Shown: piece after piece, positions 26,649 to 61,439 of the stretch
How positions within the stretch are numbered: the first letter of the stretch is position 1
How the letters are laid out: the number at the start of each line of letters is the position of its first letter
NCBI RefSeq assembly: GCF_016921195.1
Contig: NZ_JAFGYF010000001.1
Span: 1 to 64,000, forward strand
Origin: Cellulosimicrobium cellulans
GTDB taxonomy: Bacteria; Actinomycetota; Actinomycetes; Actinomycetales; Cellulomonadaceae
Direction of reading: 5' to 3'
DNA: 64,000 nt
The notes under the pieces: model-generated
The model's input: only the letters and a program-made list of their open reading frames with translations
What the model was told of the DNA's origin: nothing
Database searches by the model: none
Program-made: the position numbers and the translations under genes

Positions 26649-28292
26649 TCACCAGATCGAGGCCAGCCGCGTCACCTCGATCGATCTCAAGGTCGCCGTC
26701 CCTCCGCGCGCGTAGACCGAGAGCCCGACGGTGCCCTCGCCGGGGTAGACCACCATCGTCCCGGTGAGGGCCCCGTCGTCGACGAACGCCTCCACGGAGG
26801 ACTCGTCGACGAGCACCCGCAGCCGCACCACGCCGTCCAGCGGCGCGTACGGCGCCGCTCGGCGGATCCCGAACTCGGTGTTCTCCCCGCTCCTGTCGGG
26901 CAGCGTGGTGAGGCCGGCGTGGGTCCGGTCCAGGAAGAACCCCTCGGGGCCGATGCCGACGACCGTCGCCTCCTCGATCGACCCGTCCTCAGCGCGACGC
27001 TCACGGACCCGCAGCCCGACCTCCTCCGCGTCTCCCACGGCGATCTCCGCGAGCGCCTGGTAGGTCGTGCCGGGGTCGTCGAGCACCGCCTCGTCGTCCC
27101 CGAGCGCCACGTCGGTGACGGTCGTGGTCCCCTCGCCCAGCACCTGGAGCTCGGGGACGGGCGTCTGCGCGAGGACGTACCCGCCGTCGGGCAGCACGTC
27201 GCCCGACGGTGCGGGGCCGTCCGGAGCCACGCGCCGCAGGGACAGCTCGCGCGGGACGCTCATCGCGTTCTGCCACGGCGTCGTCGGGGCGGAGTAGGGG
27301 AAGCGCCAGCTGCCCATCCAGCCGAGCCAGAGTCTGCGCCCGTCGGGTGCGTGCTCGAACGTCTGGGCGGCGTAGAAGTCCTGGCCCACGTCGGTGATCT
27401 GCACGGCCTCAGACGGTGTCGCGGGGTCGCGCGTGAACGTCGTCCCGTCGAAGTCGCCGACGAAGTACTGGGCCGTCGACCCGTTCGTCTCCTCGGAGTC
27501 GCCGACGCTCACGGTGAGCACCCAGCGCACGTCGTCCGGATCCCCGTCCACGGGCAGGGGGAACAGGTCCGGGCACTCCCACACGGCCGAGTGCAGGCCC
27601 TGCCCCTCGCCGAAGGTGCTGAGCCGCTCCCAGTGCAGGAGGTCCGGGGAGCCGTGGAGCTCGACGCCGTCCCCCACGGAGACGACCATGACCCACCGGT
27701 GCGTCGCCTCGTGCCAGAAGACCTTCGGGTCACGGAAGTCGCTGCGCCCGTCGTTCGGGATCACGGGGTTGTCCGCGTAGCGCTCCCACGTGCGGCCACG
27801 GTCGGTGCTGTACGCGAGCGACTGCGCCTCACCGCCCTCCGTCGAGGTGTACACCGCGACGAGGCCGCCCTCGCCTGCAGGGAACAGCCCCGACGTGTTC
27901 GCCCCGTCCACGACGGCGCTCCCGGACAGGGCCTGGCCGAGCTCGTCGTGCTCGAGCGCCGTGGGGAGCGTCTCCCAGTGCACGAGGTCCGTGCTCACCG
28001 CGTGCGCCCACGTCCCGTCCTGCTGGTGGAACAGGTGCCACTCCCCCTCGAACCACACGAGCCCGTTCGGGTCCGCGAGGCGTCCCTCGGGCGGGCTGTA
28101 GTGGAACTGCGGACGCCACGGCTCGGCGTACGCCGTGCTCTCGCGCGGGCCGGGCGCCGTCGTGCCCGACGGCGCCCGGTCGTCCTCCGGCGTGCCGGTG
28201 CACCCCGCGAGCAGCGCGAGCGCGAGCGCGACGGCTGCCGCGACCCCGCGTGACGGGACGCGCCGTGCCGTGGAGCGACCGGTTCTCGCCAT
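26649..28292 (-). CDS. GH32 levanase-like lipoprotein
   Basis: A 547-residue surface lipoprotein. The signal peptide is AAAVALALALLAGC (Cys near residue 31), followed by an acidic/Pro linker. Catalytic residues are the Asp of RLADPNG (a variant of WMNDPNG), FRDPKVFW and WECPDLFPL. The body is the five-bladed propeller with a C-terminal beta-sandwich ending in SSVEAFVDD. It probably hydrolyses levan or other fructan at the outer face of the membrane. Its start is uncertain: ATG 28292 gives a standard lipoprotein n-region, whereas a GTG lies at 28310. It lies 105 bp downstream of the levansucrase gene on the same strand, so the pair may be one transcript. Confidence 0.85.
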   Translation of the reverse strand: MARTGRSTARRVPSRGVAAAVALALALLAGCTGTPEDDRAPSGTTAPGPRESTAYAEPWRPQFHYSPPEGRLADPNGLVWFEGEWHLFHQQDGTWAHAVSTDLVHWETLPTALEHDELGQALSGSAVVDGANTSGLFPAGEGGLVAVYTSTEGGEAQSLAYSTDRGRTWERYADNPVIPNDGRSDFRDPKVFWHEATHRWVMVVSVGDGVELHGSPDLLHWERLSTFGEGQGLHSAVWECPDLFPLPVDGDPDDVRWVLTVSVGDSEETNGSTAQYFVGDFDGTTFTRDPATPSEAVQITDVGQDFYAAQTFEHAPDGRRLWLGWMGSWRFPYSAPTTPWQNAMSVPRELSLRRVAPDGPAPSGDVLPDGGYVLAQTPVPELQVLGEGTTTVTDVALGDDEAVLDDPGTTYQALAEIAVGDAEEVGLRVRERRAEDGSIEEATVVGIGPEGFFLDRTHAGLTTLPDRSGENTEFGIRRAAPYAPLDGVVRLRVLVDESSVEAFVDDGALTGTMVVYPGEGTVGLSVYARGGTATLRSIEVTRLASIW

Positions 28293-28397
28293 CGTCACCA
28301 CGCTAGGCACCGTGGCATCCCACCCGCCCGCCGGGGCGCGAGGGAGGGGCGACGGCCGGGTGCCGCCGCCCCGCCTCAGGCGTGCGACCCTCGTCCG

Positions 28398-30290
28398 CTA
28401 CGGGAGCGGACTCGGGTCGGGATCGGGCGAGACGGCCTGCTCGGCGTTCGCGGGGATGTCCCCGTAGCCGCCGAGGCCGTCGTCGCCGTAGGAGCGGTCG
28501 ACGACCGCGCTCGTGCCGGCGATGTTGAGCTTCACCGTCGGCGCGAGGGTCCCGCCGCGTCGCACGTCCGGGTTGCCGATGGCGTCGATGAACGACTCGA
28601 CGAGACCCCCGGGCTGGACGTAGTGCGAGTAGGACTGGAACGCGTGCGCCGTCTGGAACGGGTCCGGGCTCGCCGGGGTCCCGACCGCGTAGTTGAGGTT
28701 CGTCGGGTTGCCCAGGGCGAGCCCGCTCCCCTCGTTGAGCGGCTGGAAGTCGGACCGGATGCCGTTGCCCACGAACCCGTAGACGCCGTCCGGACCGTCC
28801 AGGTACCAGAACCGCGGATCGGTCGAGTCGGTGTCCGGGCCGCGCGCGAACGTGTGCCGGTGGCTGATCGTGAACAGGTAGTACTTCGACCCCTGCACGT
28901 AGATCTGCGGACGCTCCGTCTGGTCGTTGACGCAGTTGCCGGACAGGATCGGCGGCAGGTACCGCCACTGCGTCATCGCCTTGTTCTCGGCGACGGCGAG
29001 GCCGACGTTCGCCATCTGGAAGTTCGCGCCCGAGGCCGTCACGGTCTCAGGCAGCTCGGCGTACGGATCGCCCTCGCGGTAGCCGAGGTCCTCGGCCGTG
29101 CACGGCACCGACCCGCGCTCACCGCCCGTGTTGCCCTCGAACACCATGTACGTCGGGCTGTCCTCGGTGTTCGGGTCCTCGAAGGTGAACGGGTCGCGGA
29201 AGTTGACGAACGCGTTCTGCTCACGGGTCTGGTAGAGCGTCCCGTCCGGCACGAGCAGCTGGTGCTGGTCGCGTGCACCGGTGAGCCACACGCCGTCCTC
29301 GTCGGCGAAGATGCGCAGCTCGGTCTGGACGATGCGCGGGTCGGCGGGCTGGATCTCCTGGTCGTTCGCGTCCCGGTAGAACGCGACCGCCGTGTAGAAC
29401 ATCCGGAGCTTGTTGCCCTCCATGATCCGGGTCGAGCCGGACCACTCGGTGACCGTCGAGAACGACTGGTCCTCGAAGATCGCGCCCGCGGCGCCGTCCG
29501 GGAACACGTGGCCCCCGTAGATCCAGCCGCCGTTGGCCGGCCGCTCGTCGGCGGGCACGTCAGCGGGCCGGTAGAAGAACCCGATCCGCGCGTGGGTGTG
29601 CCGGTCGTCGAACGTGTACCCGGCCGTCGAGTCGGCGACGAGCGAGAAGATGACCTCCCAGCCCTTGAAGCTCAGCTGGTTCGAGTGCTCGTCCGTCAGC
29701 GTCCAGGTGTCCCACACCCAGACCTGGGTGCCGTTCTGGTCCACCAGGACCGGGAAGTCCTGCGGGATCTCGGGCATCGTGTACTCCTCCGGCAGGGAGT
29801 TCTCCCCTGCCGGCGCGGAGGGCTCCGACATCGCCCGGATCTGGAGGGCGTCCGCACGGGTCCACCGCGCGGTGAAGTCGTCCTCCGGGTCGTACGCCTG
29901 CTGGCTGTGGATCGACGGCGCAGGGAAGCCCGGGAAGCGGAACGGGGTGACGAGCCCGTCCTCACCCGGGTCGTCGGTCGGTGGCGCTTCGTCGGCAGGC
30001 GGTTCGTCGCCGCCCTCCGGCGGCGCGGGGTCCTCTGTCGCAGGTGCCGGATCGGCCGGGACTGGCTCCTCGAGTGCGGGGGCGGTCTCCGACGGAGCCG
30101 TCTCCTGAGGCACCGGCGCGGTGTCGTCCGTCGTGGTCTCGGTGGGCGACGGGGGCGTCGGCGCCTCGTCGTCCTCGGCCGCCAAGGCGGTCGTGGAGCC
30201 GATCGTGATGGTTCCCAGGAGGAGGCCGGTGGCGAGCAGTCCGCTCACCAGCCTCTTCGTGCGTGGTCGTGTGCGTGTCGAAGACTTCAC
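28398..30290 (-). CDS. GH68 levansucrase/fructosyltransferase, secreted
   Basis: A 630-residue secreted enzyme that transfers fructose from sucrose to growing fructan, probably levan. It has an N-terminal signal peptide (LVSGLLATGLLLGTITIGSTTALAA) and then a Pro/Glu/Thr/Ala-rich linker (residues about 40-110). The GH68 catalytic propeller shows WVWDTW (nucleophile Asp near 193), FRDPF (transition-state Asp near 365) and TERPQIY (acid/base Glu near 457). The C-terminal tail lacks an anchor. GTG 30290 has AAGGTG upstream. Levan as opposed to inulin is inferred from the levan-degrading neighbours; the sequence alone does not settle linkage. Confidence 0.9.
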   Translation of the reverse strand: MKSSTRTRPRTKRLVSGLLATGLLLGTITIGSTTALAAEDDEAPTPPSPTETTTDDTAPVPQETAPSETAPALEEPVPADPAPATEDPAPPEGGDEPPADEAPPTDDPGEDGLVTPFRFPGFPAPSIHSQQAYDPEDDFTARWTRADALQIRAMSEPSAPAGENSLPEEYTMPEIPQDFPVLVDQNGTQVWVWDTWTLTDEHSNQLSFKGWEVIFSLVADSTAGYTFDDRHTHARIGFFYRPADVPADERPANGGWIYGGHVFPDGAAGAIFEDQSFSTVTEWSGSTRIMEGNKLRMFYTAVAFYRDANDQEIQPADPRIVQTELRIFADEDGVWLTGARDQHQLLVPDGTLYQTREQNAFVNFRDPFTFEDPNTEDSPTYMVFEGNTGGERGSVPCTAEDLGYREGDPYAELPETVTASGANFQMANVGLAVAENKAMTQWRYLPPILSGNCVNDQTERPQIYVQGSKYYLFTISHRHTFARGPDTDSTDPRFWYLDGPDGVYGFVGNGIRSDFQPLNEGSGLALGNPTNLNYAVGTPASPDPFQTAHAFQSYSHYVQPGGLVESFIDAIGNPDVRRGGTLAPTVKLNIAGTSAVVDRSYGDDGLGGYGDIPANAEQAVSPDPDPSPLP

Positions 30291-31856: not shown

Positions 31857-34800
31857 TCAGCCGCAGGTCCGAGCGTCAAAGGCGACGTCGTACACCGTGT
31901 CCACAGGGGTGCCGTCGAGGACTGCCGTCCCCGTGACGGCTACCGTGCCCGCCTCGACGGACGTCGCTCGGGTCGGGAACGACTGGTAGGCGTTCCTGCC
32001 CGGCGCCACGTCCGTGAACGACTTCTCTCCGAACGGCGTCGTGAGGGTCAGGTCCGCGGGCACGCTGCCCGCGTTCGTCGCGCGGACCGCGATGTAGGTC
32101 TTGCCCGCCAGGCACCGCGGCGACACGTCCACGTCCAGGTCGACGGTCGGCACCTCTCCGGAGACCTTGACCTTGACCTGGACGTCCGCGAGCTCCGGGT
32201 CGAGCTCCTCGGCATAGGTCATGTCGAGTATGGGCTGGCCGTCGGCGGCCCAGTGGACGCGCCGGACCTCGGTGTCGCGGCCATCGCCGGAGGCGGTGCC
32301 GTTGCCCCAGCGGTGGTAGACGTAGAGGAGGTTGTCGTCCTCGTCCCAGGTGAACGAGCCGTGTCCGGGGCCCTGCTCGTAGCGGCCGTAGTCGACGCCC
32401 GTGACCATGGGTTCGCTCTTCTGCAGCGGGGCACCGTACTTGTGCCAGCTGTGGATGTCGGTGAGGTCGGCGTCCTCGTCCGCCCACACGCCGCCGACGA
32501 TGTAGGTGGGGCTGACGCCGGAGCCGGAAGTGGTCAGGTAGATCTTGCCGTCGTGGTGCAGGGGGAACGCGCCTTCGCTGAGATGGTCCTCGAACGTCAG
32601 GGTCGGCACGATGATCGGCGTCGCCGTCGTGGTGATCCGTGTCGGGTCGGCCGGATCGACCTTGGCGATCCATGTCGCGGGGTCGCTCAAGCCGGGTGTG
32701 ACGTAGCGCTGGGACCACGCGTAGTACGCCTCACCACCGGCCTCGACGTAGGTCATGTCGAGCGAGATGTTCTGGGCGAATCCCGGTCGTCCGAGGGGGT
32801 TTCCTGCGGCGTCGAGGATCGGCGCCGGAGTCGACCAGTGGTCGGGGTTCGCCGGGTCTCCCCCGTCCTCGAGCTGCATGATGTGGGCCTGCACGGTCCG
32901 CCACGATCCACCGCTGTTCGCTTGGGAGTCGTTCTCGTTGAAGCAGGGGGCGAACAGGATGGACAGGCGTCCGCCGATCTCGTGGATCTCCGGTGCCCAG
33001 TAGCAGCCTGCGATGGTGCGGCCCTGCGTGTTCCTCTCTGCCCGGGTGAGTCGGTTGAGCAGATCGACCTCCAGCGAACGACCGCCGTTGACGTCCGCGA
33101 GGGCTTCGATCGAGCTCGCGGCCCGGATCGGCAGGTGGGTGGAGCCGACGTTGTCGTTGTTGGTGTCGTCGGTGGCGATGAAGAGATAGGTGGTCTCGGC
33201 GTCCCGGGTGTACCGGTAGATGGTCGGGTCGGCCCGGTTGTGCGCGAACTGGCGGGGGTACCGGGTCTGCTTGATCCGGCCGTCGAGCGTGTAGGTGCCG
33301 GGGCCGGCGTCGGCGAGGCCGGCCAGCTGGTCGGCGTCCCACGTGACAGCGCGCTGGGCTGTCGATCCGTCGGAGTAGGTCAGGGTCGCGCGGACGTCCT
33401 GGAGGGCACCGGTGGCACCCGGGGCGATCTCCTGGTCGGGGACCGTGACGGCCGTGTTGGTGATGCGGCCGAACCGGGTCCGCAGCGCGTCAGCGGCCGT
33501 GGCCGGGACGGTGATCGCGTTGGTCGGCTCGGCGTCGGCGATACGGGAGGCGACGTCGTCGGGGACGGCGAGCGCGGTGGTGATCGGCGCACCGTCGCGA
33601 GGCTGGTCGCGGTTGCCGTCGGTCGCGACCACGGTGCGACGCCCCCCGTACGGGGAGTGCGGGTCCGGCACGCTGGCGGTGCGCCCGAGGTCCTCGATCA
33701 GGACGTGCTGCGCACGCCCGGCGTCGGTGGTCCACGACACGAGGTACCGGTCCTCGGCGGAGTCGTAGAGCGCGACCGGGTCGTTGATGCCCGCCGTCGT
33801 CCCGAGGTCGACGAGGCCCAGCTCGCGGAAGTCGGTGACGTTGCCGGGCTCCTGCGAGCGGAAGACGAGGGCCTGGCTCGTCCGGGTGCCGTCCGAGCTG
33901 CCGTCGACCTCGACCCGTGTGGCGATGACGCCGAGTGTGCCGTCAGCGAACCAGAAGAGCGACGGGTCGCGCAGGGCGCGCAGGTCGCTGAGGTCGACGC
34001 CGGTGAAGACGCTGCTCGCGAAGAGCACACCACCGTTCTCGTTGAGCGGCTCGGCCGTCTCGACATGATCGCCGAGCGCGAGGTGCAGCGACCGGGCGAC
34101 GGTCTGGTGGTTGGCCTGGTCCACGGAGGTCGGGGTGCGGGTGTAGGCGAGGAGCGCCTGTGAACCGTCTTGCGGAAGCACCTTCACCGAGAACTGCTTC
34201 GTCAGCGTGTCACCCTCGACCGCGGCGGACGCGGTGACCTCGACGTCGAGAGCCGCGTCGTCGTCGTTGACGAGCATGCCGTCCACGACGGCGGTCGCCG
34301 GCTCGGCGCTCCAGACGACGAGCCCGTCGCCCACGGGGGGCAGGGAGTATCCGTCGCCCACGATCGGCGGCACGACGAGACGGGACCGCAGGTCGGCGGT
34401 GATCTCCTCGGTCGAGAAGGCGCGCACCACGACGTCGACGGCGTCGCCACGGATCTCCACGCCTCCGAGGGAGGCTGCCGGCGTGAGCGTCACGGTGACG
34501 TCCGGGCTGCCCGGTGCCGGGCGGCGCACGGTGCCGCTGCTCGTGACGACGTCAGGGTGGCTGCTCGTCCAGGTGATCGACGCGCCGTTGCTGCCGGTGG
34601 CAGGCAGCGGCAGGTCGCCACGGACGTCGGCGGTGTCACCGAGCTCGATCGCGTCCAGGTCCGCGCGGGCGAGCGCGGTGTAGCCCTCCACGCCGAGTGC
34701 GGCCACCTCACCGGGCGCCAGAGCGGACGCGAAGACCTGGACCTCGTCGATCGCCCCGCCGAACAACGGATCGACTGCGTACAGGGACCGGCCGAGGTAA

Positions 34801-35456
34801 CCCGACGCGGCGGCGGCACCGAGTGCCGCCTCCGCGGTGTGCGCCGTGGTGGAGCGGGCGACCTCGGTGCCGTTGAGGTAATAGGCGATGTCGGTGCCGC
34901 CGTCGAGCACGACGGCGACGTGCTCCCAGCGGTCCGCGACCAGCGGCCGCGGTGCGGTGGAGCGCTGCTCCGTGCCTTGCTTGATCGCTCCGAAAGATGC
35001 CGCTCCGCACCTGGGGGTGGCAAAGACGTAGCTGGTGCTGTCGCGCCCGAGAGCGAAGGGCCAGGTGCAGTCCCGGGCGCCGTCCCAGCGGACCCATCCG
35101 GCGATCGTCAGATCTGTCTGCCCCGGACCGACGAGGCCGGCCGGGAGCTGGACGTACGGGGCACCCGAGGTGTTGGCGCCCCCGGGCAGCTCGATCGCGA
35201 GGTCCCCCGGCGTACCCGTCACACCGGGGACGAGGGACGCCCCGGTTCCGACCACGGTGGCGTGCCGGGCGCCGGTGCCGGCATCGTGGAGGGTCGCGCC
35301 TGCGCCGACGGCAGCGTCGTCGTCGAAGGCGTAGTGCACGTCGGCCACGGGTGCGGCCGCTGCCGGGGCTGCCGCGAGCCCGACCCCGACGAGGCCGCTC
35401 GCGACGAGCAACCCCGGCAGGGTGAGGGCAAGCAGTCGGGAAGGTCTGGACTTCAT
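31857..35456 (-). CDS. secreted LamG-GH43 glycosidase with C-terminal two-Cys module
   Basis: A 1199-residue extracellular enzyme, probably acting on arabinan- or xylan-type glycans. It has a signal peptide (residues about 1-35), a LamG/concanavalin-like domain (about 40-215) and Ig-like domains (about 240-350). A long middle region (about 370-640) also looks like a five-bladed propeller. A Big_4-like segment (about 650-720) precedes the GH43-type domain (about 735-1090), with NRADPTIYRY (catalytic Asp), WAPEIHEIGG and GPGHGSFTWDED. The last 90 residues (PRCLAGKTY to the final CG) are shared with two other enzymes here. The ATG at 35456 starts the signal peptide. The next upstream gene on the same strand is 55 bp away, so the two LamG-GH43 genes are probably one operon. 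The exact linkage specificity is unknown. Confidence 0.78.
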   Translation of the reverse strand: MKSRPSRLLALTLPGLLVASGLVGVGLAAAPAAAAPVADVHYAFDDDAAVGAGATLHDAGTGARHATVVGTGASLVPGVTGTPGDLAIELPGGANTSGAPYVQLPAGLVGPGQTDLTIAGWVRWDGARDCTWPFALGRDSTSYVFATPRCGAASFGAIKQGTEQRSTAPRPLVADRWEHVAVVLDGGTDIAYYLNGTEVARSTTAHTAEAALGAAAASGYLGRSLYAVDPLFGGAIDEVQVFASALAPGEVAALGVEGYTALARADLDAIELGDTADVRGDLPLPATGSNGASITWTSSHPDVVTSSGTVRRPAPGSPDVTVTLTPAASLGGVEIRGDAVDVVVRAFSTEEITADLRSRLVVPPIVGDGYSLPPVGDGLVVWSAEPATAVVDGMLVNDDDAALDVEVTASAAVEGDTLTKQFSVKVLPQDGSQALLAYTRTPTSVDQANHQTVARSLHLALGDHVETAEPLNENGGVLFASSVFTGVDLSDLRALRDPSLFWFADGTLGVIATRVEVDGSSDGTRTSQALVFRSQEPGNVTDFRELGLVDLGTTAGINDPVALYDSAEDRYLVSWTTDAGRAQHVLIEDLGRTASVPDPHSPYGGRRTVVATDGNRDQPRDGAPITTALAVPDDVASRIADAEPTNAITVPATAADALRTRFGRITNTAVTVPDQEIAPGATGALQDVRATLTYSDGSTAQRAVTWDADQLAGLADAGPGTYTLDGRIKQTRYPRQFAHNRADPTIYRYTRDAETTYLFIATDDTNNDNVGSTHLPIRAASSIEALADVNGGRSLEVDLLNRLTRAERNTQGRTIAGCYWAPEIHEIGGRLSILFAPCFNENDSQANSGGSWRTVQAHIMQLEDGGDPANPDHWSTPAPILDAAGNPLGRPGFAQNISLDMTYVEAGGEAYYAWSQRYVTPGLSDPATWIAKVDPADPTRITTTATPIIVPTLTFEDHLSEGAFPLHHDGKIYLTTSGSGVSPTYIVGGVWADEDADLTDIHSWHKYGAPLQKSEPMVTGVDYGRYEQGPGHGSFTWDEDDNLLYVYHRWGNGTASGDGRDTEVRRVHWAADGQPILDMTYAEELDPELADVQVKVKVSGEVPTVDLDVDVSPRCLAGKTYIAVRATNAGSVPADLTLTTPFGEKSFTDVAPGRNAYQSFPTRATSVEAGTVAVTGTAVLDGTPVDTVYDVAFDARTCG

Positions 35457-35511
35457 CGTCGTTCCTCTCGCATCGTGGGTGTCATCCGCAGGTCGAGGCC
35501 GTAGGGCATGG

Positions 35512-38460
35512 TCAGCCGCAAGCACGCGCGTCGAACGCCACCTCGTAGGACGTCGGGGTGCCACCGTCGACCCAGCCGGCGACCGTGACGGTGCCCGCCG
35601 CGACCGAGGTCGTCCGCGTCGCGAACGACTGGTAGGCGCTCTTGCCCGGCGCCACGTCGGCGAACGACCTCTCTCCAAACGGCGTCGTGAGGGTCACGTC
35701 CACGGGCACGTCGCCCGCGTTCGTCGCCCGCACCGCGAGGTAGACCTTGCCCGCGAGGCACCTTGGCGACAGCTCGACCTCGAGCGGCACCTGGGTCTGC
35801 GGGTCACCGACAGCCGTGAGCGTCGCAACGGCCGGCGTACCCGCGCCGTTGGCGAGGCGGCCCTCGACGGTGACGGTGTCACCCGGTCGCGTGAGCTGCC
35901 CGAGGTCCACGTGGTCCCACGCGACCGCCACCTGCTCGGTGTGCCCGTCCCGGAACGTCGCCGTCACGGTGGCGGGCAGGTCGACGCTCGTGGTGCCGAT
36001 CTCGACGTCCAGCGCGACGGGCGCGACATCGGTGACGAGGAGGTTGGGCGCCCACCTCGCCGCGAGGGCGTCGCGCTCGGCGCGCGTGATCCCGATGACC
36101 GAGCCGTGGCGCGGTGAGCGCGGGAGCGAGAAGGACGACGGGTAGGTCCAGGCGACGTCGCCCTCGAGCGAATCCGTCATCAGCGGGATGTACCCCACGC
36201 CGCCGTAGTCGTCGACCCACAGGTAGTACCGGTTGCCGTTGACGTCGTCGTCGTTGGCGAGGAACGCGCTCGGCCCTTCGACCTCGGGGGTGCCGGCGGT
36301 GCGGCCGATGCACGTATCGACGAGCTGCCAGGCGCCGGAGGCCGTGGTCGCGCGCAGGCTCGTCGACCTCTGCCCGATGATGTCCGGGGACGGGCAGCCG
36401 CTGGCCTGGGTGGCCTTGGTGAACCGGTAGTAGGTGTCGCCGTCCTTGAGGACGGTCGAGTCGATCAGGCCACGGTCCTCGACCAGGCCCGGGACGTCGG
36501 CCGCCTTGAACCAGGGCTCGGGGTCGGTGAACGTGCGGAAGTCACGCGTGATCGACGTGAGGATCTGCGGGCCGTTGCCGTCCTGGACCGTGCGCGCCTC
36601 GTCGCTGTACATCGTCGACGTCCAGTACACGAGGTAGGCGTCGATCGACTCGTCGTAGAACGCCTCCGGCGCCCACGTCATCCCGGCGTTCGGCAGGTTG
36701 ACCTCGACGTGGCGCTGTTCGCCCCAGTTCACGAGGTCCGTGGACTCCCAGATCTCGAGGTGGCGGCTGCCGCGGTCGGTCGCGCCTCCCCATCCCGTAC
36801 GCCCGACCGACAGGTCGGTGGCGAGCAGGAAGAACCGGTCGCCCTCGTGGGAGCGCATGATGAACGGGTCGCGCAGCCCCATCGTGCCCTTGGTCGACTC
36901 CAATACGGGCTGGGCGCCGTTCAGCTCCTTCCAGCGCAGCGCGTCGTTGCCGTCGGACGTGGCGAACCGGATCTTCTCGCCCTCGATGCTGTCCGCCGTG
37001 AAGTAGGCGAACATGTAGGCCTCGAAATCCTCGCGCCCGATGCGAGGGTCCGCGGGAACGTTCACCACCACGTCCACGTCGACCGATTCAGCACCCGCGA
37101 CCGCGACGGTCGCGGTGAGCGTGACCGTCGTGTCCCGTTCGCCACGCGTGACGGATCCCTTGCGCACCACGTCGGGCGCCGTGCCGGAGTCGGTGTCGGA
37201 GATGACGGCGTCGTCCGAGGACCGCCAGACGATCGTCGCCGCCTCGGCACCGCGCATGTCGGGGGCGACGTCGCTGCCGCTCTCGGGCAACGTCAGGCTC
37301 CCGAGCACGTCGCCCTGGAACGCCGGCAGCTCCGGGATCCTCGCGGCGACCTGCCGGGCGAGGAACGCCTCGGGACCGTCACCCTCGGCCCAGGCCCTCA
37401 CCGTCACCGCGATCGGCGCGCCGACGACGGTCACGGGTCCGAACGACGCCGTGGGCGTCAGGGTCACGCGCTCGTCGGGCTCGCCGGCGGTTGGCCTCGT
37501 CACGACACCCGTCGTGCTCACGACGTCCGGCGCGCTCGAGACCCACGTGAGCGTCGAGCCGCCGGCACCGACGGTCGCCAGGTCGAGGTCGTTCTCGACG
37601 GCGCTCGTGTCACCGAGGTCGACAGCCACGTCGCGCTGCGCGACGGCCGCGTAGACGGCCCGTTCCGCCTCCTGGAGCTGCTCCGCAGTCAGCGCCTCGG
37701 TGTAGACGCGGACGTCGTCGATCGCGCCGTCCCAGTACGCATCGGCGGCGTAGAACGACTTCCCGACGTACCCCGAGAACGTCGCAGTCCCGACAGCGGC
37801 GGCCGCGGTGTGCGTCGTCGCCGCGTGCCCCACACGCACGCCGTCGAGGTACGTCGACACCGACGTGCCACCGTCGACGACGACCGCGAGGTGCGCCCAA
37901 CGGTTCGTCGGGACCGTGCCCTGGCCGGTCGCGCGAACCTCGTTGCCGTCGCGGATCGCTCCGTAGGCGTTGCCACCGCAATCGGTCGTGGCGAACACGT
38001 GCCGCTCGACCGCCGAACCCAGCGTGAAGGGCCACGTGCACGCTGGAGCCCCGCTCCAACGAATCCACGCCGACATCGTGACGTCCGTCGTGCTCGCGTC
38101 GAGCAAACCCGGCGCGATCCGCACGTACGGCGCTGCGGCCGTGTTCGCTCCACCGGGCAGCGAGAGCGCGCGATCGTCCTCGTGGCCCGTCGGACCGGTC
38201 ACGAGAGAAGCTCCGGTGTTGAGGACGGTGCCGGGGTGGGATGCGGACCCGCTGTCCTGCACGACCGTGCCGGCGCCCGCCCCCGCCAGACCGTCGAAGG
38301 TGTACTCGAGCACCGGTTCAGGCACCTCGACCCCGGCCGATGCGTTCAGCGCTCCGCCGGCGACGAGCGCCGACGTGAGCCCGAGCACCGCCAGGGCGGC
38401 CGCAGCGCGTCGGCGCTCGACCTCTCGATGGCCCACGTTCTTCCTTCTAGCGTTCAGCAC
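35512..38460 (-). CDS. secreted LamG-GH43 glycosidase with C-terminal two-Cys module
   Basis: A 982-residue extracellular enzyme. A basic n-region and hydrophobic stretch (AAAALAVLGLTSALVAGGALNASA) form the signal. LamG occupies about residues 48-215, and Ig-like domains about 225-460. The GH43 domain (about 470-810) begins AYMFAYFTADSI and carries GLRDPFIMRS (catalytic Asp near 528) and MTWAPEAFYDE. An Ig-like/Big_4 domain follows (about 820-890), then the shared 90-residue C-terminal module (PRCLAGKVY to the final CG). GTG 38460 is supported by AAGGAGGAGGGG upstream. The likely target is an arabinose- or galactose-containing plant glycan. The promoter region holds LacI-like palindromes. Confidence 0.8.
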   Translation of the reverse strand: MLNARRKNVGHREVERRRAAAALAVLGLTSALVAGGALNASAGVEVPEPVLEYTFDGLAGAGAGTVVQDSGSASHPGTVLNTGASLVTGPTGHEDDRALSLPGGANTAAAPYVRIAPGLLDASTTDVTMSAWIRWSGAPACTWPFTLGSAVERHVFATTDCGGNAYGAIRDGNEVRATGQGTVPTNRWAHLAVVVDGGTSVSTYLDGVRVGHAATTHTAAAAVGTATFSGYVGKSFYAADAYWDGAIDDVRVYTEALTAEQLQEAERAVYAAVAQRDVAVDLGDTSAVENDLDLATVGAGGSTLTWVSSAPDVVSTTGVVTRPTAGEPDERVTLTPTASFGPVTVVGAPIAVTVRAWAEGDGPEAFLARQVAARIPELPAFQGDVLGSLTLPESGSDVAPDMRGAEAATIVWRSSDDAVISDTDSGTAPDVVRKGSVTRGERDTTVTLTATVAVAGAESVDVDVVVNVPADPRIGREDFEAYMFAYFTADSIEGEKIRFATSDGNDALRWKELNGAQPVLESTKGTMGLRDPFIMRSHEGDRFFLLATDLSVGRTGWGGATDRGSRHLEIWESTDLVNWGEQRHVEVNLPNAGMTWAPEAFYDESIDAYLVYWTSTMYSDEARTVQDGNGPQILTSITRDFRTFTDPEPWFKAADVPGLVEDRGLIDSTVLKDGDTYYRFTKATQASGCPSPDIIGQRSTSLRATTASGAWQLVDTCIGRTAGTPEVEGPSAFLANDDDVNGNRYYLWVDDYGGVGYIPLMTDSLEGDVAWTYPSSFSLPRSPRHGSVIGITRAERDALAARWAPNLLVTDVAPVALDVEIGTTSVDLPATVTATFRDGHTEQVAVAWDHVDLGQLTRPGDTVTVEGRLANGAGTPAVATLTAVGDPQTQVPLEVELSPRCLAGKVYLAVRATNAGDVPVDVTLTTPFGERSFADVAPGKSAYQSFATRTTSVAAGTVTVAGWVDGGTPTSYEVAFDARACG

Positions 38461-55488: not shown

Positions 55489-56496
55489 CTACTTCAGCGT
55501 GCGCACGCTGGCGCGGTCGGTCAGCTGCGGGGGAACGAGCATGTGCGAGGTGGTGGTCTCGACCTGGCCACCCATGCGCTGGGTGAGCAGCCGCACCGCG
55601 GACTGCGCCACCATCTCGGGCTGGGACTCCACGGAGGTGTAGGGCAGGGCGAAGAAGTCGGCGAGCTCGGAGGAGTGCAGACTGACCACCGACAGGTCAC
55701 GGGGCACCTCGAGGCCGGCCTCGTGCAGCACCGTCGGCAGCATCGCGACCGCGCCGTCGTTGTGGACCAGCAGAGCGGTGGACCCCTCGTGGCGACGCAG
55801 CAGCTCACGCAGGTCCTGGCGAATCTCGGCAGGCTCTGGCCGGCAGTAGTGGTCTACGAGGCTGACCCCGAGCCGGCGGGCACGCGCCCTTGCTGCGCGG
55901 TCGAACCGCGTGGCGAAGGTGTGTCCGGCTTGGTAGATCTCCTGCGGCCACCGCACGAAGGTGACCTTGCGGTGCCCCTTCTCGTACAGGTGGTTGACCA
56001 GCGTCTGCGCGCCGCTCGCGAAGTCCAGGTCGACCGCATCCAGGCTCGAGCCGTCGGCCATCCCGACCAGAACCGCCGGAAATCCGGCGGTCTCGATGGG
56101 GTCGACGCGCGGGTCGTCGGCCACGACGTTGAGCAGCACCAGCCCGTCGACCTGACGCCCGGCGATCGCGCTGCGCACGGCCCGCACGCCGTCGCTGTCG
56201 GTGATGAGCTGCAGGCCGTACCCGGACTCTCGCGCCGCGTCCGACAGTGCGACCAAATAGGCGGCCAACGCCGGCTGGAACTCGGAGTGGTGGAACTGCA
56301 CGACCACGCCGATGTTCATCGTGCGCGCCGTGGCCAGCGCCCGCGCGCTGGAGCGCACCGAGAAGTCCAGCCGCTGGATCGCCGCATGGACCCGGTCCTT
56401 GGTCTCCTGCGAGATCGTGCGCTTACCCGACAGCACGTACGACACCGTGCTGCGCGAGACGCCCGCCTCTCGCGCAACGTCTCCGATGTTTGCCAT
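55489..56496 (-). CDS. LacI-family regulator of the arabinose-glycan locus
   Basis: A 335-residue repressor. The HTH is at residues 1-45 (NIGDVAREAGVSRSTVSYVLSGKRTI) with a hinge, then the effector domain. It lies between two transcription units that both carry AACCGGTT-centred operators just after their -10 boxes (55395-55408 and 56638-56650). It is therefore the likely regulator of both the transport/GH31/GH127 operon and the divergent GH39 gene. Confidence 0.87.
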   Translation of the reverse strand: MANIGDVAREAGVSRSTVSYVLSGKRTISQETKDRVHAAIQRLDFSVRSSARALATARTMNIGVVVQFHHSEFQPALAAYLVALSDAARESGYGLQLITDSDGVRAVRSAIAGRQVDGLVLLNVVADDPRVDPIETAGFPAVLVGMADGSSLDAVDLDFASGAQTLVNHLYEKGHRKVTFVRWPQEIYQAGHTFATRFDRAARARARRLGVSLVDHYCRPEPAEIRQDLRELLRRHEGSTALLVHNDGAVAMLPTVLHEAGLEVPRDLSVVSLHSSELADFFALPYTSVESQPEMVAQSAVRLLTQRMGGQVETTTSHMLVPPQLTDRASVRTLK

Positions 56497-56606
56497 GTGC
56501 CTCTCCTTCAGCCCGCCCCGTCGGGGCCCCGGCCCCGCCTGCCGCTGGATCGACGGGGATCACCTCGCACTGTCGAACAAGGAAGGCCAACGTCGCGAGC
56601 GCACCC

Positions 56607-56650
56607 TTGACCACCCGTAGACGTCAGGCTAGCGTAATCGAACCGGTTCA
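56607..56650 (+). promoter_or_regulatory. promoter and LacI operator of the GH39 gene
   Basis: -35 TTGACC (56607-56612), 17-bp spacer, -10 TAGCGT (56630-56635), then TCGAACCGGTTCA (56638-56650) at the expected start site. The arrangement mirrors the transport-operon promoter at 55395-55441. Confidence 0.75.
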
Positions 56651-56735
56651 CCACGTCCAAGGTCGGACGCGTGATTGCCGAGACGACCGGGGGCGTGTGC
56701 ACCGACTGTCCAGTCACACGAGAAAGTTGGATCCA

Positions 56736-59700
56736 GTGGTACGACGACGTACACCGGCGCGCACGCGCCACGCGACCCCACTCCGCAGAGCGATCGGTGG
56801 CGGGCTCGTCGCCGCGCTCTCCTTCGGGACCCTCGGCACCGCCGTCGGGCTGGCCCCCTCAGCCGCCGCGGGGGTGCCCGACGACGAGCTGGTCCTGCGC
56901 TACGACTTCGAGCCGTCCCAGGTCTCCGGCGACGTGATCGAGGACCTTTCCGCCAAGGGGCTGGACGGGAAGCTGGTGAACGCCGGCAACGCGACCTTCC
57001 CGCAGGGCCACACCGACGGAAGTGCCGCGCTCGAGCTGCCGGGCGGGGCGACGGGGTCGACCACGGCGCCCTACGTGCAGATCCCCAACGGAGTCTTCGA
57101 GGGCCTCGAGGCCGCCACCATCTCCACCTGGGTCCGCTGGGACGGCGGGGCCGACTTCCAATGGGTCTACAACCTCGGCCGAGACAACAACCGGGCCACG
57201 TTCCTCACCCCGTCCTTCGGCGGCGACCCGCGCTCGCGCTCGTCGATCAAGCCGGTCAACAACAACGCCGAGGTCGGCGTGTCCAGCATCGGCAAGCTGC
57301 CGACCGGCACCTGGGTCAACGCCGTCACCGTGATCGACCAGTCCACGATCACCTACTACCTCAACGGCATCAGGGTCGGCTCGACCAACGCCACCCTCGA
57401 CCTCGACGCGGTCATGCACTCCCCGACGAACACGACCTCCGGGTTCCTCGGCAAGCCCTTCTGGGGCGGGCACCCGTTCTTCGACGGCGCGCTCGACGAC
57501 TTCCGCATCTATGGCACCGCGTTGGGCGCCGAGACCGTCGCCGAGCTGTACGGGCAGGCCCTTCCCACGCTCCAGGGCGTCGCCCAGACCTCGATCTCGG
57601 TCGAGACGACCAGGGGCACGGCCCCCGCGCTGCCCGCGACGGCACCCGGTGACTTCAGCGACAGGATCCAGCGCGCGGTGAACATCACGTGGGACGAGGT
57701 CGAACCGAGCTCCTACGCCGAGCCCGGACGGTTCTCCGTGAACGGCACCGTCGACGGCACCGACCAGGTCGTCACCGCGAACGTGCGCGTCACGCTCCCC
57801 GGCCAGACCACTATCGACCTCGGCGAGAGCACCGGCGCCTTCCACGGTGGCGCGTCAGGGACCCTGTACGGCCTGTACGACCAGGGCCTGCCCTCGAACA
57901 ATCTCGTCGACGCGATCAACCTGCGCACCGTGGCCACGAAGGCCCAGGACGGCCCCCAGCACCCCGGCGCTGACGCGCTCGAGGTCGTCAAGCCGCTGGC
58001 CGACTCCTCCGACGGTGACGTGTACATCTACATGACCGACGTCCACCGCGGCTTCCCCTACCAGTGGCCAGGGAGCACGCCCGAGCAGAAGCTCGACCTG
58101 TACATGGAGAAGCTCGAGAAGCAGGTCGACCAGGTTCTCGAGCTGCCGGCCGAGTACCAGGACAACATCGTCCTCATGCCGTACAACGAGCCCGAGGGGA
58201 ACATGTTCGGCACCGGTGAGTGGAGCTACAACCGCGTCAGTTGGCTCAACAACCCCACGGACTTCTTCGCTGCATGGGACCGCGCCTACCACCTCATCAA
58301 GACCAAGTGGCCTGAGGCCCGCATCGGCGGGCCGAATACGAGCGTTCTGTTCAACCAGGTCCACGGCTTCATGGAGCATGTCGTCGAGGCCGGTACCGTC
58401 CCGGACGTCATCGCCTGGCACGAGCTCTCCGACCCCGCCACGATCCGCAGCTCCGTCGACCGGTACCGCGGCTGGGAGGACGAGATCTTCGCCGGCACGG
58501 ACCTCGAAGGCACCCACCTGCCGATCAACATCACCGAGTACGCGTTCAACTATCACACCTCGGTTCCCGGGCAGATGATCCAGTGGGTCTCTGCCCTGGA
58601 GGACAAGAAGGTCTTCGGGGACATCGCGTACTGGAACATCGACGGGAACCTGTCCGACTCCGCCGTCCAGGCCAACCGCGCCAACGGCCAGTGGTGGCTG
58701 CTCAACGCCTACGCCCAGATGAGCGGCAACACGGTCAAGCTCACGCCGCCGCGCCCGAACGTCAGCTACACCCTGCAAGGCGTGGCCACCCTCGACCAGG
58801 ACAAGGCACAGGCCCGCACGATCCTCGGCGGTGCCGGCGGCGAGAGCTTCGTCTCCTACGAGAACGTGCCCACCGAGCTGTTCGGCCAGACGGTCCACGT
58901 CCAGGTCAAGGAGATCGGCTGGACCGGACAGCTCGGCGACTCCGCCAACCCGCCCACCGTCGCCGAGTACGACGCTCAGGTCAGCAACGGTGGCCTCGTC
59001 GTGCACTTCGGCGGTGAGGACGTCCCGGCCATGAACGCCGAATCTGCCTACCAGATCATCCTTACCCCCGGGGCAAACGCGTCCGCCTCCTCGACCAGTC
59101 CGACGATCTGGGACGCGACGTACGAGGCCGAGGACGCCGCCCACACCGGCTCCGGCTGGTCCCTGAACGGTCCCGAGGGTGGCCCCACGCGGCAGGGCAG
59201 CTTCTACACTTCCGGCGAGTACAACGTCGGTGGTCTTCGCACCGGGTCCAACGTCACGCTCGACTTCACCGTCGACGTCCCCCAGGACGGCACCTACGAC
59301 CTGAGCGTGTTCGCGAACTCGCTCAACACCTACGGCGCCGTCCAGGAACAGGGTCCCACCAACGTTTTCCTGCGCGTCGACGGCGACGCCACCACCGAGC
59401 AGGAGATCCACCTTCCCCTCGGGTACAAGTGGGTCGTGTGGGACCACGCCGACACCACCGTCGACCTCACCGCCGGCAAGCACACCATCACGCTGGCCGC
59501 TCGCAGCCTGGACGGCACTCGGGTGACCAAGGGCGACGCCATCGTCGACAAGATCGACCTGTCCCTGGCAAACCCCAAGCACACCCAGGAGATCTACGAG
59601 GCCGAGTACGCCTCCCTCGACGGGGCCCAGCTCGACTACAGCATCCCGGGCGTGTCCGGCTCCGGCGTCGCAAGCATCGGCGCGGACCAGGCCGTGACGT

Positions 59701-60698
59701 TCTGGGTCTACTCCCCCACCGACGCCGGCGCCCACCTCACCGTAGACGCCACCGGCGACGGTCAGCGTGCCCTCTCGGTCAACGACCGCGAGATCACCAC
59801 CCAGGACGAGGTCACCACGTTCCTGGTCGGCGGGATCAACAAGATCACCGTCCAGGGCACGGCAGGCACCACGCTCGTCGACCGCCTGCGTGTCGAGTTC
59901 GACGACGAGTCCCTGTCCGGGACCACCTACGAGGCCGAGGACGGCGAGCTCGCCGGCACCGCCCAGGTATCCGGCCTGACCCTGGCCAGCGGCGGCAAGG
60001 CCGTGACCAACGTGGGAGGCGACCCGGGCAACGCCAACACCCTCACCTTCGACAATGTGGAGGCCCCTGCGGCCGGGACGTACGCGATGACCGTGCGCTA
60101 CTCCAACCAGGAACAGTCCCCGGCCACGCACTACAACCCCGACCCGCTCGCCCGCTACGCCCACATCTCGGTCAACGGCGGCGAAGTCCAGAAGGTCCCG
60201 TTCCCGCACTCGTTCCACCAGAACAACTTCTGGGACCTCACCGTGTTCGTCGACCTCGACGAGGGCAGCAACACCATCCGGTTCTCCTCCGAGGAGAAGC
60301 CCAACTTCGACGGCGTCACCTACGCCTCCGACGACTGGCCGGACGTGCTGCTGCGCTCGAAGTACGCGCCGAACCTCGACAAGATCACGATCACCCCGAC
60401 CACCACGGTCGAGGCCGACGAGCTCGACGTCTCGGTCGAGGCGACGCCCCGCTGCCTGGCCGGCAGGGCCTACCTCGCAATTCGGGCGACGAACAACGAG
60501 AACGGGCCGGTGGACATCACCGTCACGACCCCTGTCGGCAGCAAGACGTTCACCGCGGTCGCACCGGGCACGGCGGCCTACCAGTCGTTCAACTCCCGCG
60601 CCACGACTCTGTCAGCGGGAAGCGGGACCTGGGAAGTCACCCGTGAGGACCGGTCCGCCACGCTCACTGCGGACTATCAGGGCACGCAGTGCGGATGA
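56736..60698 (+). CDS. secreted LamG-GH39-CBM glycosidase, arabinose-glycan side-chain releasing type
   Basis: A 1320-residue extracellular enzyme. The signal peptide (GGGLVAALSFGTLGTAVG, ending near AAAG) is followed by LamG (residues about 50-270), an Ig-like segment (about 275-350) and a GH39 barrel (about 355-790). The acid/base Glu is in MPYNEPEGN (near 485) and the nucleophile Glu in NITEYAFNYH (near 600). Three CBM6/35-like modules begin YEAEDAAHTG, YEAEYASLDG and YEAEDGELAG (residues about 795-1225). The shared two-Cys module closes the protein. The layout recalls Bifidobacterium GH39 enzymes that release disaccharides from gum-arabic-type arabinogalactan side chains; the match is by architecture and genomic setting, not by test. 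GTG 56736 is the most plausible start, with a weak ribosome-binding site. Confidence 0.78.
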   Translation: MVRRRTPARTRHATPLRRAIGGGLVAALSFGTLGTAVGLAPSAAAGVPDDELVLRYDFEPSQVSGDVIEDLSAKGLDGKLVNAGNATFPQGHTDGSAALELPGGATGSTTAPYVQIPNGVFEGLEAATISTWVRWDGGADFQWVYNLGRDNNRATFLTPSFGGDPRSRSSIKPVNNNAEVGVSSIGKLPTGTWVNAVTVIDQSTITYYLNGIRVGSTNATLDLDAVMHSPTNTTSGFLGKPFWGGHPFFDGALDDFRIYGTALGAETVAELYGQALPTLQGVAQTSISVETTRGTAPALPATAPGDFSDRIQRAVNITWDEVEPSSYAEPGRFSVNGTVDGTDQVVTANVRVTLPGQTTIDLGESTGAFHGGASGTLYGLYDQGLPSNNLVDAINLRTVATKAQDGPQHPGADALEVVKPLADSSDGDVYIYMTDVHRGFPYQWPGSTPEQKLDLYMEKLEKQVDQVLELPAEYQDNIVLMPYNEPEGNMFGTGEWSYNRVSWLNNPTDFFAAWDRAYHLIKTKWPEARIGGPNTSVLFNQVHGFMEHVVEAGTVPDVIAWHELSDPATIRSSVDRYRGWEDEIFAGTDLEGTHLPINITEYAFNYHTSVPGQMIQWVSALEDKKVFGDIAYWNIDGNLSDSAVQANRANGQWWLLNAYAQMSGNTVKLTPPRPNVSYTLQGVATLDQDKAQARTILGGAGGESFVSYENVPTELFGQTVHVQVKEIGWTGQLGDSANPPTVAEYDAQVSNGGLVVHFGGEDVPAMNAESAYQIILTPGANASASSTSPTIWDATYEAEDAAHTGSGWSLNGPEGGPTRQGSFYTSGEYNVGGLRTGSNVTLDFTVDVPQDGTYDLSVFANSLNTYGAVQEQGPTNVFLRVDGDATTEQEIHLPLGYKWVVWDHADTTVDLTAGKHTITLAARSLDGTRVTKGDAIVDKIDLSLANPKHTQEIYEAEYASLDGAQLDYSIPGVSGSGVASIGADQAVTFWVYSPTDAGAHLTVDATGDGQRALSVNDREITTQDEVTTFLVGGINKITVQGTAGTTLVDRLRVEFDDESLSGTTYEAEDGELAGTAQVSGLTLASGGKAVTNVGGDPGNANTLTFDNVEAPAAGTYAMTVRYSNQEQSPATHYNPDPLARYAHISVNGGEVQKVPFPHSFHQNNFWDLTVFVDLDEGSNTIRFSSEEKPNFDGVTYASDDWPDVLLRSKYAPNLDKITITPTTTVEADELDVSVEATPRCLAGRAYLAIRATNNENGPVDITVTTPVGSKTFTAVAPGTAAYQSFNSRATTLSAGSGTWEVTREDRSATLTADYQGTQCG

Positions 60699-60724
60699 TC
60701 GCGCCACAGTGATGCCCCACTGAT

Positions 60725-60768
60725 GGCGCGGCCGGTTCAGGTGAACGTTCACCTGAACCGGCCGCGCC
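60725..60768. terminator. perfect 44-bp palindrome
   Basis: Two 22-bp arms meet with no spacer (centre between 60746 and 60747; core GTGAACGTTCAC). It starts 27 bp past the GH39 stop. It should terminate transcription in both directions and could extrude as a cruciform. Confidence 0.75.
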
Positions 60769-60899
60769 GCGCCGTCACACCGCCAGGCCCACGGCCAATC
60801 ACCGCGGACACATGCGCCGCTGCGGGCGACCGCGCAAAACCGCTCAAAGAAGAGGGGACTTATGGACAGCGCGAGCACCAACCACATGAGTCGCCCCCG

Positions 60900-61120
60900 G
60901 TGAGTCCGCTCGACCACCTCGGTTTCGACGCCGACACCTGGGACAGCTGGAACGCCTGGGGTACCGGCACCACCAATCCAAATCCCAACCCCGACCCCGG
61001 CACGACCGCGCACCAGATCGTGAACGGTAAGTCGGGCAAGTGCATCGACCGCGCCGGCGGCGGCACCACCAACGGCACCAAGGCACACCTGTGGGACTGC
61101 CGCGGATACCCCTCCCAGTG
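60900..61120 (+). pseudogene. CBM13 (ricin-B lectin) fragment
   Basis: The frame from about 60900 reads SPLDHLGFDADTWDSWNAWG, then an Asn/Pro/Gly linker and HQIVNGKSGKCIDRAGGGTT, ending LWDCRGYPSQW. This is a glycosidase C-terminal linker followed by the first part of a ricin-type lectin repeat with its Q-W motif. No upstream catalytic part or clean start exists, and the frame then runs into transposase sequence. Confidence 0.6.
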
Positions 61121-61327
61121 GCCGAGTCCCAGATCGGGCTTCACAAGACCGAGCTCATCCGCCCCGAAGGCCCCTGGAAGGGCCTCGACGACCTCGAGGC
61201 CGCCACCTTGGACTGGGTCCACTGGTTCAACACGGAGCGCACCCACGGATCCATCGACGACCTCACCCCGGTCGAAGCCGAAGCGGCCTACTACAGCCAC
61301 CACCAACGCCAAGCCGACTCGGCTTGA
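61110..61327 (+). mobile_element. IS3-family transposase C-terminal remnant
   Basis: Reading AESQIGLHKTELIRPEGPWKG, then LEAATLDWVHWFNTERTHGSIDDLTPVEAE, this is the conserved end of an IS3-family OrfB integrase (the N-T-E-R-x-H-x-x-x-x-x-x-T-P block). The DDE domain's first half and any left terminal repeat are missing, so the element is dead. It is joined directly to the lectin fragment. Confidence 0.7.
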
Positions 61328-61342
61328 CGCACGAAACCCAGT

Positions 61343-61359
61343 CCCCGGACACGCCGGGG
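61343..61359. terminator. short hairpin after the transposase remnant
   Basis: CCCCGG (61343-61348) pairs with CCGGGG (61354-61359) around 5 nt. It lies downstream of both the remnant (+) and dnaB (-). Confidence 0.4.
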
Positions 61360-61391
61360 TGACTCATAGTGGGAGGATTGTGCAAAGTAGG

Positions 61392-61439
61392 CTGCATATC
61401 GACGAAAACGCGAACGCCTACATCTGCATATCGGCGAAA
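61392..61439. repeat. 16-bp direct repeat at the dnaB 3' end
   Basis: CTGCATATCG-A-CGAAA (61392-61407) and CTGCATATCG-G-CGAAA (61424-61439) differ at one base and are 32 bp apart. The second copy contains the last codons of dnaB; the first is outside the gene, toward the transposase remnant. Confidence 0.55.

Follow-up and report, generated by a model that had tools for sequence, protein, structure and literature searches.

The module and its three carriers

The first 64,000 nucleotides of contig NZ_JAFGYF010000001.1 of Cellulosimicrobium cellulans (assembly GCF_016921195.1), here called the window, encode three proteins that share a homologous C-terminal domain of about 93 residues, the module, recognized by alignment of the translated open reading frames (ORFs). 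This module belongs to an apparently undescribed but real actinobacterial family of C-terminal immunoglobulin-like (Ig-like) domains, which has no model in the libraries searched and is extremely expanded in Cellulosimicrobium. Two of the carriers are enzymes of glycoside hydrolase (GH) family 43 and the third is a GH39-like enzyme (Table 1), and in all three the stop codon directly follows the module. The motifs PRCLAG, RATN, TTP.G, VAPG, AYQSF and a terminal Cys-Gly, which a preliminary description of this DNA had picked out, are all present in the alignment of the three copies, in which the aligned C-termini are 63% and 39% identical to the first copy. The same description named the catalytic types: Pfam bears out GH43 for both enzymes (E 1.2e-19 and, weakly for the second, 7.3e-9), but the GH39 label found no Pfam match at E <= 1 and survives as a GH39-like catalytic part by comparison with PDB, where it matches 5u22 (E 1.2e-33) and, under the entry name "family 5/39 of glycosyl hydrolases", 8uwt (E 1.2e-19). 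The module end of the three proteins has no Pfam or NCBIfam match at E <= 1. As listed, the ORF of the first carrier (31857-35678, minus strand) opens with a TTG at 35678, and the third carrier probably starts near 56736, ahead of its signal peptide, rather than at 56247.

Table 1. Module copies in the window and the proteins that end in them.
Feature	Position	Strand	Remarks
Module, first GH43 enzyme	31860..32138	-	RCLAG...AYQSF...TCG; Ig-like C-terminal domain; stop 31857-31859
Carrier 1, secreted	31857..35456	-	Laminin_G_3, aBig_2, GH43, module; probable ATG at 35456 ahead of signal peptide
Module, second GH43 enzyme	about 35515..35793	-	Ig-like C-terminal domain; stop 35512-35514
Carrier 2, secreted	35512..38460	-	Laminin_G_3, aBig_2, GH43 (weak), Big_4, module
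Module, GH39-like enzyme	about 60417..60695	+	Ig-like C-terminal domain; stop 60696-60698
Carrier 3	56247..60698	+	Laminin_G_3, Big_4, GH39-like catalytic part, CBM6/CBM35, module

The module in the genome of origin

Across the 4.58-Mb genome, 46 places match a profile of the three window copies at E <= 1e-3, and 45 of these lie at the C-terminus of their protein, with 0-11 residues beyond the profile match; the remaining match (C23:117014, E 6.4e-5) is weak and internal. These numbers rule out a chance similarity of the three ends. With a later profile the number of matches in this genome was 48. One of its modules is identical to that of a C. composti locus (L075). The second of the two cysteines of the module is present in 42 of the 45 copies, and in those 42 the stop comes 0-1 residue later. 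A Cys-Gly at the stop, as described for the window copies, is not universal in the genome: 28 copies end in Cys-Gly, five in Cys-Ser, four in Cys-Ala, one in Cys-Asp and four in the cysteine itself, and three are without it. As a cleavage or lipidation motif, Cys-Gly was rejected on the grounds that the residue after the cysteine varies and that 13 of 188 modules are without both cysteines. The proposed secretion of the carriers is borne out by a crude signal-peptide rule that 42 of 45 pass; one pass is doubtful (C18:74221) and one of the three misses shows a signal-like stretch (C4:272).

To examine the range of carriers, all those outside the window except C18:370584, 41 of 42, were compared with Pfam, each minus its last 95 residues. 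The glycosidases among them are GH2, GH10, GH13 pullulanase, GH30, GH43, GH92, GH127, an alpha-L-arabinofuranosidase, which we take to be GH51, and a glucoamylase-like enzyme, accompanied by a BNR-repeat (sialidase-like) protein, ThuA/GSDH proteins and 3-keto-disaccharide hydrolases. Carriers of other kinds comprise subtilase S8, peptidase M28, purple acid phosphatase, GDSL lipase, esterase, asparaginase and a protein with LTD, endonuclease, metallophosphatase and 5'-nucleotidase domains; the nuclease carrier was confirmed as ExeM/NucH by NF033681 (E 1.4e-176). Counted by Pfam matches, with the GH39-like enzyme added by PDB comparison, 23 of the 44 scanned carriers, window included, are glycosidase-like; C17:72710 and C20:178238 have no Pfam family, and four more show accessory domains only. 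To speak of unrelated secreted glycosidases was thus right as to the unrelated catalytic types but too narrow, for peptidases, a nuclease, a phosphatase, a lipase, an esterase and an asparaginase carry the module as well. The specificity for arabinogalactan that had been envisaged finds no support in a carrier set with peptidases, phosphatases, a nuclease and an asparaginase, and the list rules out a module confined to glycosidases or to arabinogalactan. None of the nine CBM2 matches in this genome falls on a module carrier and only one of nine RicinB matches does (C4:72652), a distribution that is suggestive only as a pointer to the role of the module.

On contig C9, eight carriers (L047-L049) lie within about 43 kb (5213-47747), among them GH43, alpha-L-arabinofuranosidase and GH127 enzymes, in what looks like an arabinan-type cluster. 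In the window, a small ORF just behind the GH39-like gene (60723-61448, plus strand) has a partial RicinB-lectin match at C1:61005-61121 and may be truncated or out of frame. GH32-like fructan-cleaving and GH68 levansucrase-like proteins, labelled by reading of the translations, adjoin at 26649-30290 on the minus strand, and neither is among the module matches. A replicative helicase DnaB, labelled in the same way (61418-63760, minus strand), contains an apparent intein in its P-loop region at about 62099-63073, corresponding to about residues 230-555 of 780.

Distribution and position in other genomes

In a scan of named-species genomes, relatives of the module were encoded in 330 of 358 pattern-bearing stretches, of which the best 80, amounting to 71 loci, were kept. 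Sixty-seven of these best-scoring loci are from Cellulosimicrobium and four are recorded under Sphaerisporangium cinnabarinum ATCC 31213, which is probably a relative under a wrong label; all 112 distinct modules in them are C-terminal, with 0-10 residues past the match, so that the terminal position is close to obligatory in this genus. Among 59 genomes, the genome of origin included, 26 have a module match: 48 copies in the genome of origin, 27-64 in each of 16 other Cellulosimicrobium genomes and, among 42 genomes outside the genus, 36 in one (G026, another genus of the same family) and 0-4 in the rest. Wider surveys found matches in 91 of 221 family genomes (16 of 25 genera), in seven of 396 genomes sampled from the phylum, including the genome of origin, and, with a broader profile (A4, 40 rows), in 35 of 394 genomes and 13 of 138 genera of the class, with multi-copy groups in f19, f105 and f107; at most 22 candidates were scored per genome in the family survey and at most 12 in the phylum and class surveys, so that high counts there are lower bounds. 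Copy numbers are graded, from 0-1 through 12-22 to 64; a dedicated machine would typically be either fully present or absent, and no such strict division was seen.

In three partly overlapping sets from other genera, 28 of 31, 27 of 28 and 77 of 78 modules are C-terminal. Scattered internal positions would have spoken against a terminal module; non-terminal copies do occur, but they are few (L146, L147, L168, L223 and L240) and all were seen outside the genus, those of L146 and L240 being followed by short tails only (L240 is cut by the end of its stretch). The carriers in L146 and L147 have a 5'-nucleotidase C-terminal domain; a 5'-nucleotidase domain is found in three of 20 scanned carriers from other genera. 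A variant ending (AYYWDG.GH..Y or similar) occurs in L146, L147, L165 and L223, three times on proteins of 5'-nucleotidase type, and is followed in two of these loci by aromatic repeats that resemble CBM5/12 by eye.

No clear match to any Pfam or NCBIfam family, or to a natural PDB chain, emerged from sequence and profile searches, and so no characterized domain in the libraries searched by profile accounts for the module. When the 45 modules were compared with Pfam at E <= 1, the best match to any family, among 25 of the 28 families listed, was a weak one to DUF4232 (E 0.0011, 10 members), and the known carbohydrate-binding module (CBM) profiles were represented there by CBM_35 with three members and a best E of 0.022. 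Sequence searches of PDB with the module returned designed proteins and weak matches only, and phmmer with the GH92 carrier found nothing in PDB at E <= 1e-50. In the open-licence PMC literature no description of the module was recognized, which does not establish its absence in print.

Fold, cysteine pair and conserved face

AlphaFold2 confidently predicts a seven-strand Ig-like beta sandwich (predicted local distance difference test, pLDDT, 97.3), and this model, together with a cysteine pair that is kept or lost as a unit, agrees with the two-cysteine Ig-like fold that had been proposed. The pair consists of Cys16, where strand A ends, and Cys99 at the C-terminus. Copies with both, neither or only one of them number 42, 3 and 0 in the genome of origin, 106, 6 and 0 in other Cellulosimicrobium loci, 27, 4 and 0 in a distant set and 74, 4 and 0 in seven multi-copy genomes, sets that overlap in part and in which many rows are orthologues; the lone apparent single cysteine lies upstream of the module in C20:178238. 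Rows without the pair fall in five separate places of the module tree as drawn. The natural reading is a disulphide that would tie the first strand to the last residue, and this speaks against the cysteine as a processing site.

Strand alternation places positions 20, 22, 24, 26 and 28 of strand B and 56, 58, 60 and 62 of strand E on the outside. Among the 45 paralogues of the genome of origin, these presumed outward B/E positions have a mean pairwise identity of 0.66, against 0.28 at sixteen such positions of strands C, D, F and G (permutation p below 0.001), and the same contrast is seen in f105 (0.94 and 0.63, p 0.0014), g46 (0.48 and 0.24, p 0.0080) and f19 (0.30 and 0.20, p 0.0173). Conserved Tyr and Arg residues stand on this face, and several positions are uniform within a lineage and different between lineages: at position 26 the genome of origin has Arg in 88% of its copies and f105 has Thr in all, and at position 58 these two have Tyr in 97% and 100%, respectively, and f19 has Ser in 57% of its copies. 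By lineage the face reads Arg26/Tyr58/Ser60 in Cellulosimicrobium, Thr26/Tyr58/Ser60/Asn62 in f105 and mostly Ser58/Ala60 in f19. Because the neighbouring domains differ between carriers, packing on them does not explain the conservation, and with carriers and neighbours so varied the simplest cause is a common external partner. We infer that the B/E face may be exposed and bound to such a partner on the producing cell.

Addition of the module to whole enzymes

The M28 peptidase C18:4370 has a match in nine of 16 module-free genomes, and in G018, which has no modules, a relative with 63% identity ends directly after the catalytic domain, at the point where the C. cellulans protein continues into the module, as would be expected if the module was appended behind complete enzymes. 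Of seven relatives compared, L181 and L183 were read in a different frame and are uninformative. For 87 of 108 carriers of other Cellulosimicrobium with a homologous carrier in this genome, the closest module here sits on that same carrier (86 of 104 at a carrier identity of at least 60%), which argues that the spread of the module mostly predates the species and that each enzyme then kept its own. Between orthologues the module is slightly less conserved (median 87%) than the carrier (94%; 86 pairs). Placed in a tree, 123 modules of eight genomes group by genome, with 26 label changes against a shuffled mean of 72.5, but no genome's copies form a single group; the tree rests on few columns and has many unresolved forks. 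This pattern fits repeated expansion of an old family in separate lineages.

Sorting systems and processing enzymes

A link to a particular processing enzyme, as the preliminary description had envisaged, is not supported, for the distributions of sortase, LPXTG and exosortase do not follow the module. Sortase PF04203 is found in all 59 genomes, with 1-3 in Cellulosimicrobium and 11 in G024, a genome devoid of module matches, and LPXTG anchors number 0-1 per genome in the 17 Cellulosimicrobium genomes; with sortase number independent of module number and so few anchors, a sortase link was rejected. The last 150 residues of the 45 carriers contain one LPxTA string and no LPXTG motif with hydrophobic helix and basic tail, and the highest 19-residue hydropathy mean in their last 60 residues is 1.29, which leaves them without a hydrophobic tail. 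Weak exosortase-like matches (PF09721), two of them over the cut-off, occur in six of the 59 genomes, namely in the genome of origin (G000:C6:5377-6006), G005, G011, G016, G026 and G038, and three of the six, including that of the genome of origin, are in frames with TGA. Five of the six belong to the 18 genomes rich in modules and one to the 41 others, a lead that was dropped because 13 of the 18 module-rich genomes have no such match. Neither the tripartite PEP-CTERM tail with a co-occurring exosortase nor the Gly-rich motif, transmembrane helix and basic end of GlyGly-CTERM was found at the carrier ends, rhombosortase itself not having been searched for. Tail profiles of the type IX secretion system (T9SS), which the NCBIfam library presumably contains, were absent from the 13 NCBIfam families matched by 40 modules at E <= 1 and from the matches of the three window proteins.

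The ExeM-like carrier matches NCBIfam models that include ExeM-GG, where GG presumably stands for GlyGly-CTERM, and two LPXTG 5'-nucleotidases. Here the module occupies the slot of the sorting ends of the ExeM and 5'-nucleotidase models, which favours a destination tag. Haft and Varghese describe protein families in which some members end in GlyGly-CTERM and others in LPXTG or PEP-CTERM instead (PMC3237569).

A retention domain and its alternatives

The reading we favour, with a probability of roughly 0.43, is that the module may be a domain for non-covalent retention at the surface or in the matrix, carried behind complete enzymes, in keeping with the general attachment module of the preliminary description. 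Appended to finished secreted enzymes as a self-contained, disulphide-closed Ig-like domain, it would serve as a destination tag: once exported and folded, it would bind by its B/E sheet face a polymer or protein of the producer itself, a wall glycopolymer, an exopolysaccharide or an envelope receptor being candidates, and would so keep the enzyme on the cell or within the matrix rather than let it diffuse away. In support of this stand the 45 carriers of many unrelated kinds that one genome furnishes with the same end. The M28 relative that ends before the module, the ExeM and 5'-nucleotidase models named for sorting ends, the more conserved B/E strands, the scarcity of LPXTG anchors in the genus and the lack of CBM2 on carriers also count in its favour. 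For the asparaginase, the 5'-nucleotidase/ExeM-type nuclease and the purple acid phosphatase, moreover, binding to the substrate would be of little use and retention at the cell useful, because their substrates are small or soluble.

Several points weigh against retention. No receptor was found, gene families as a whole not having been correlated with module numbers, and some carriers may be substrate-bound, several of them having CBMs or lectin-like domains of their own. Strand A, at its four outward positions, averages 0.41 in the genome of origin, 0.78 in f105, 0.42 in g46 and 0.42 in f19, where it exceeds B/E; the grouping of B/E against C/D/F/G was chosen once the columns had been seen, outwardness was taken from strand alternation and not from a calculation of exposure, and conservation within a genome is inflated by the common descent of the paralogues. 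In L147, L168 and L223 further sequence follows the module, part of it reminiscent of CBM5/12 repeats by eye. Many genomes have one or few copies only, which fits a simple accessory domain equally, and many module-free relatives also lack LPXTG anchors, so that the low number is not special to the genus. NCBIfam models of M36 peptidases with sorting names were discarded as support: they match the M28 carrier over its PA domain only and are therefore no evidence about this peptidase.

A rather unlikely alternative is a structural end cap, in which the disulphide-tied domain shields the C-terminus of large secreted enzymes from exoproteases, helps folding and binds nothing. It would agree with the place of the second cysteine, which in 42 of 45 copies is separated from the stop by 0-1 residue, with the confidently predicted fold and with the indifference of the module to its carrier, and it needs no processing enzyme; it leaves unexplained why the B/E positions are more conserved, why sister genera differ so much in module number and why copies without the cysteine pair persist. 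A CBM for a common insoluble substrate, such as a fungal or plant cell wall, which would gather many enzymes on one target, is unlikely. In its favour, glycosidase-like proteins are about half of the carriers (23 of 44), eight copies crowd on contig C9 on GH43, arabinofuranosidase, GH127 and other proteins, conserved Tyr and Arg stand at B/E positions, and there is a precedent in the C-terminal CBM13 that targets the yeast-lytic glucanases of C. cellulans to their substrate (PMC1458353). Yet asparaginase, nuclease, phosphatase, lipase and peptidases are among the carriers, several different polymers are attacked, many carriers already have CBMs, and the 5'-nucleotidase domain recurs on carriers from other genera.

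Least probable, and in our view improbable, is a processed sorting signal, with a dedicated protease or transpeptidase that recognizes the folded domain and removes it or swaps it for a covalent anchor in a type IX-like manner. Sorting systems such as GlyGly-CTERM (PMC3237569) leave genomic signs of this kind, namely a terminal position, many carriers and expansion in particular lineages, and exosortase-like matches are commoner in module-rich genomes, but there is no transmembrane or basic tail, sortase does not follow the module, most module-rich genomes have no exosortase-like match, and low-copy genomes and non-terminal copies exist.

Should retention be correct, it would explain how an actinobacterium that is rich in exoenzymes but nearly devoid of LPXTG proteins keeps its enzymes at the cell, and the module would be a portable and genetically simple tag for surface display. 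In either case, a family without a Pfam or NCBIfam model that ends 27-64 proteins per genome across an enzyme-producing genus deserves one, and in enzyme engineering recombinant constructs keep or drop the module without knowledge of its role.

Comparison with known systems

The matches to generic Ig-like domains and designed Ig folds reflect a common arrangement and no kinship, with the possible exception of the 9fyn domain; residues 313-414 of GbpA (PDB 2xwx) are counted among the closest known systems. The CBM13 of the C. cellulans glucanases likewise sits at the C-terminus of secreted Cellulosimicrobium enzymes and targets them (PMC1458353), but it consists of three repeats and is directed to the substrate. 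With LPXTG/sortase, PEP-CTERM/exosortase and GlyGly-CTERM/rhombosortase the module shares one C-terminal homology region on many unrelated secreted proteins and strong differences between genera (PMC3237569). It differs from all three in being a folded Ig-like domain of about 93 residues with a cysteine pair and without signature motif, transmembrane helix or basic tail, and from the first two in that no sortase or exosortase distribution matches it.

The C-terminal domains of the T9SS, which are beta-sandwiches of about 80-100 residues at the extreme C-terminus of dozens of unrelated secreted enzymes, resemble the module in position, size, fold and variety of carriers. We know of no type IX-like machinery for the module, which differs from these domains of Bacteroidota in its monoderm actinobacterial hosts, its cysteine pair and the absence of a T9SS model from its NCBIfam matches. 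A bolder and decidedly unlikely reading is that the module could be their monoderm counterpart, a folded sorting domain free of a transmembrane segment that would direct dozens of unrelated exoenzymes to one dedicated surface receptor by means of a receptor-binding face co-adapted in each lineage.
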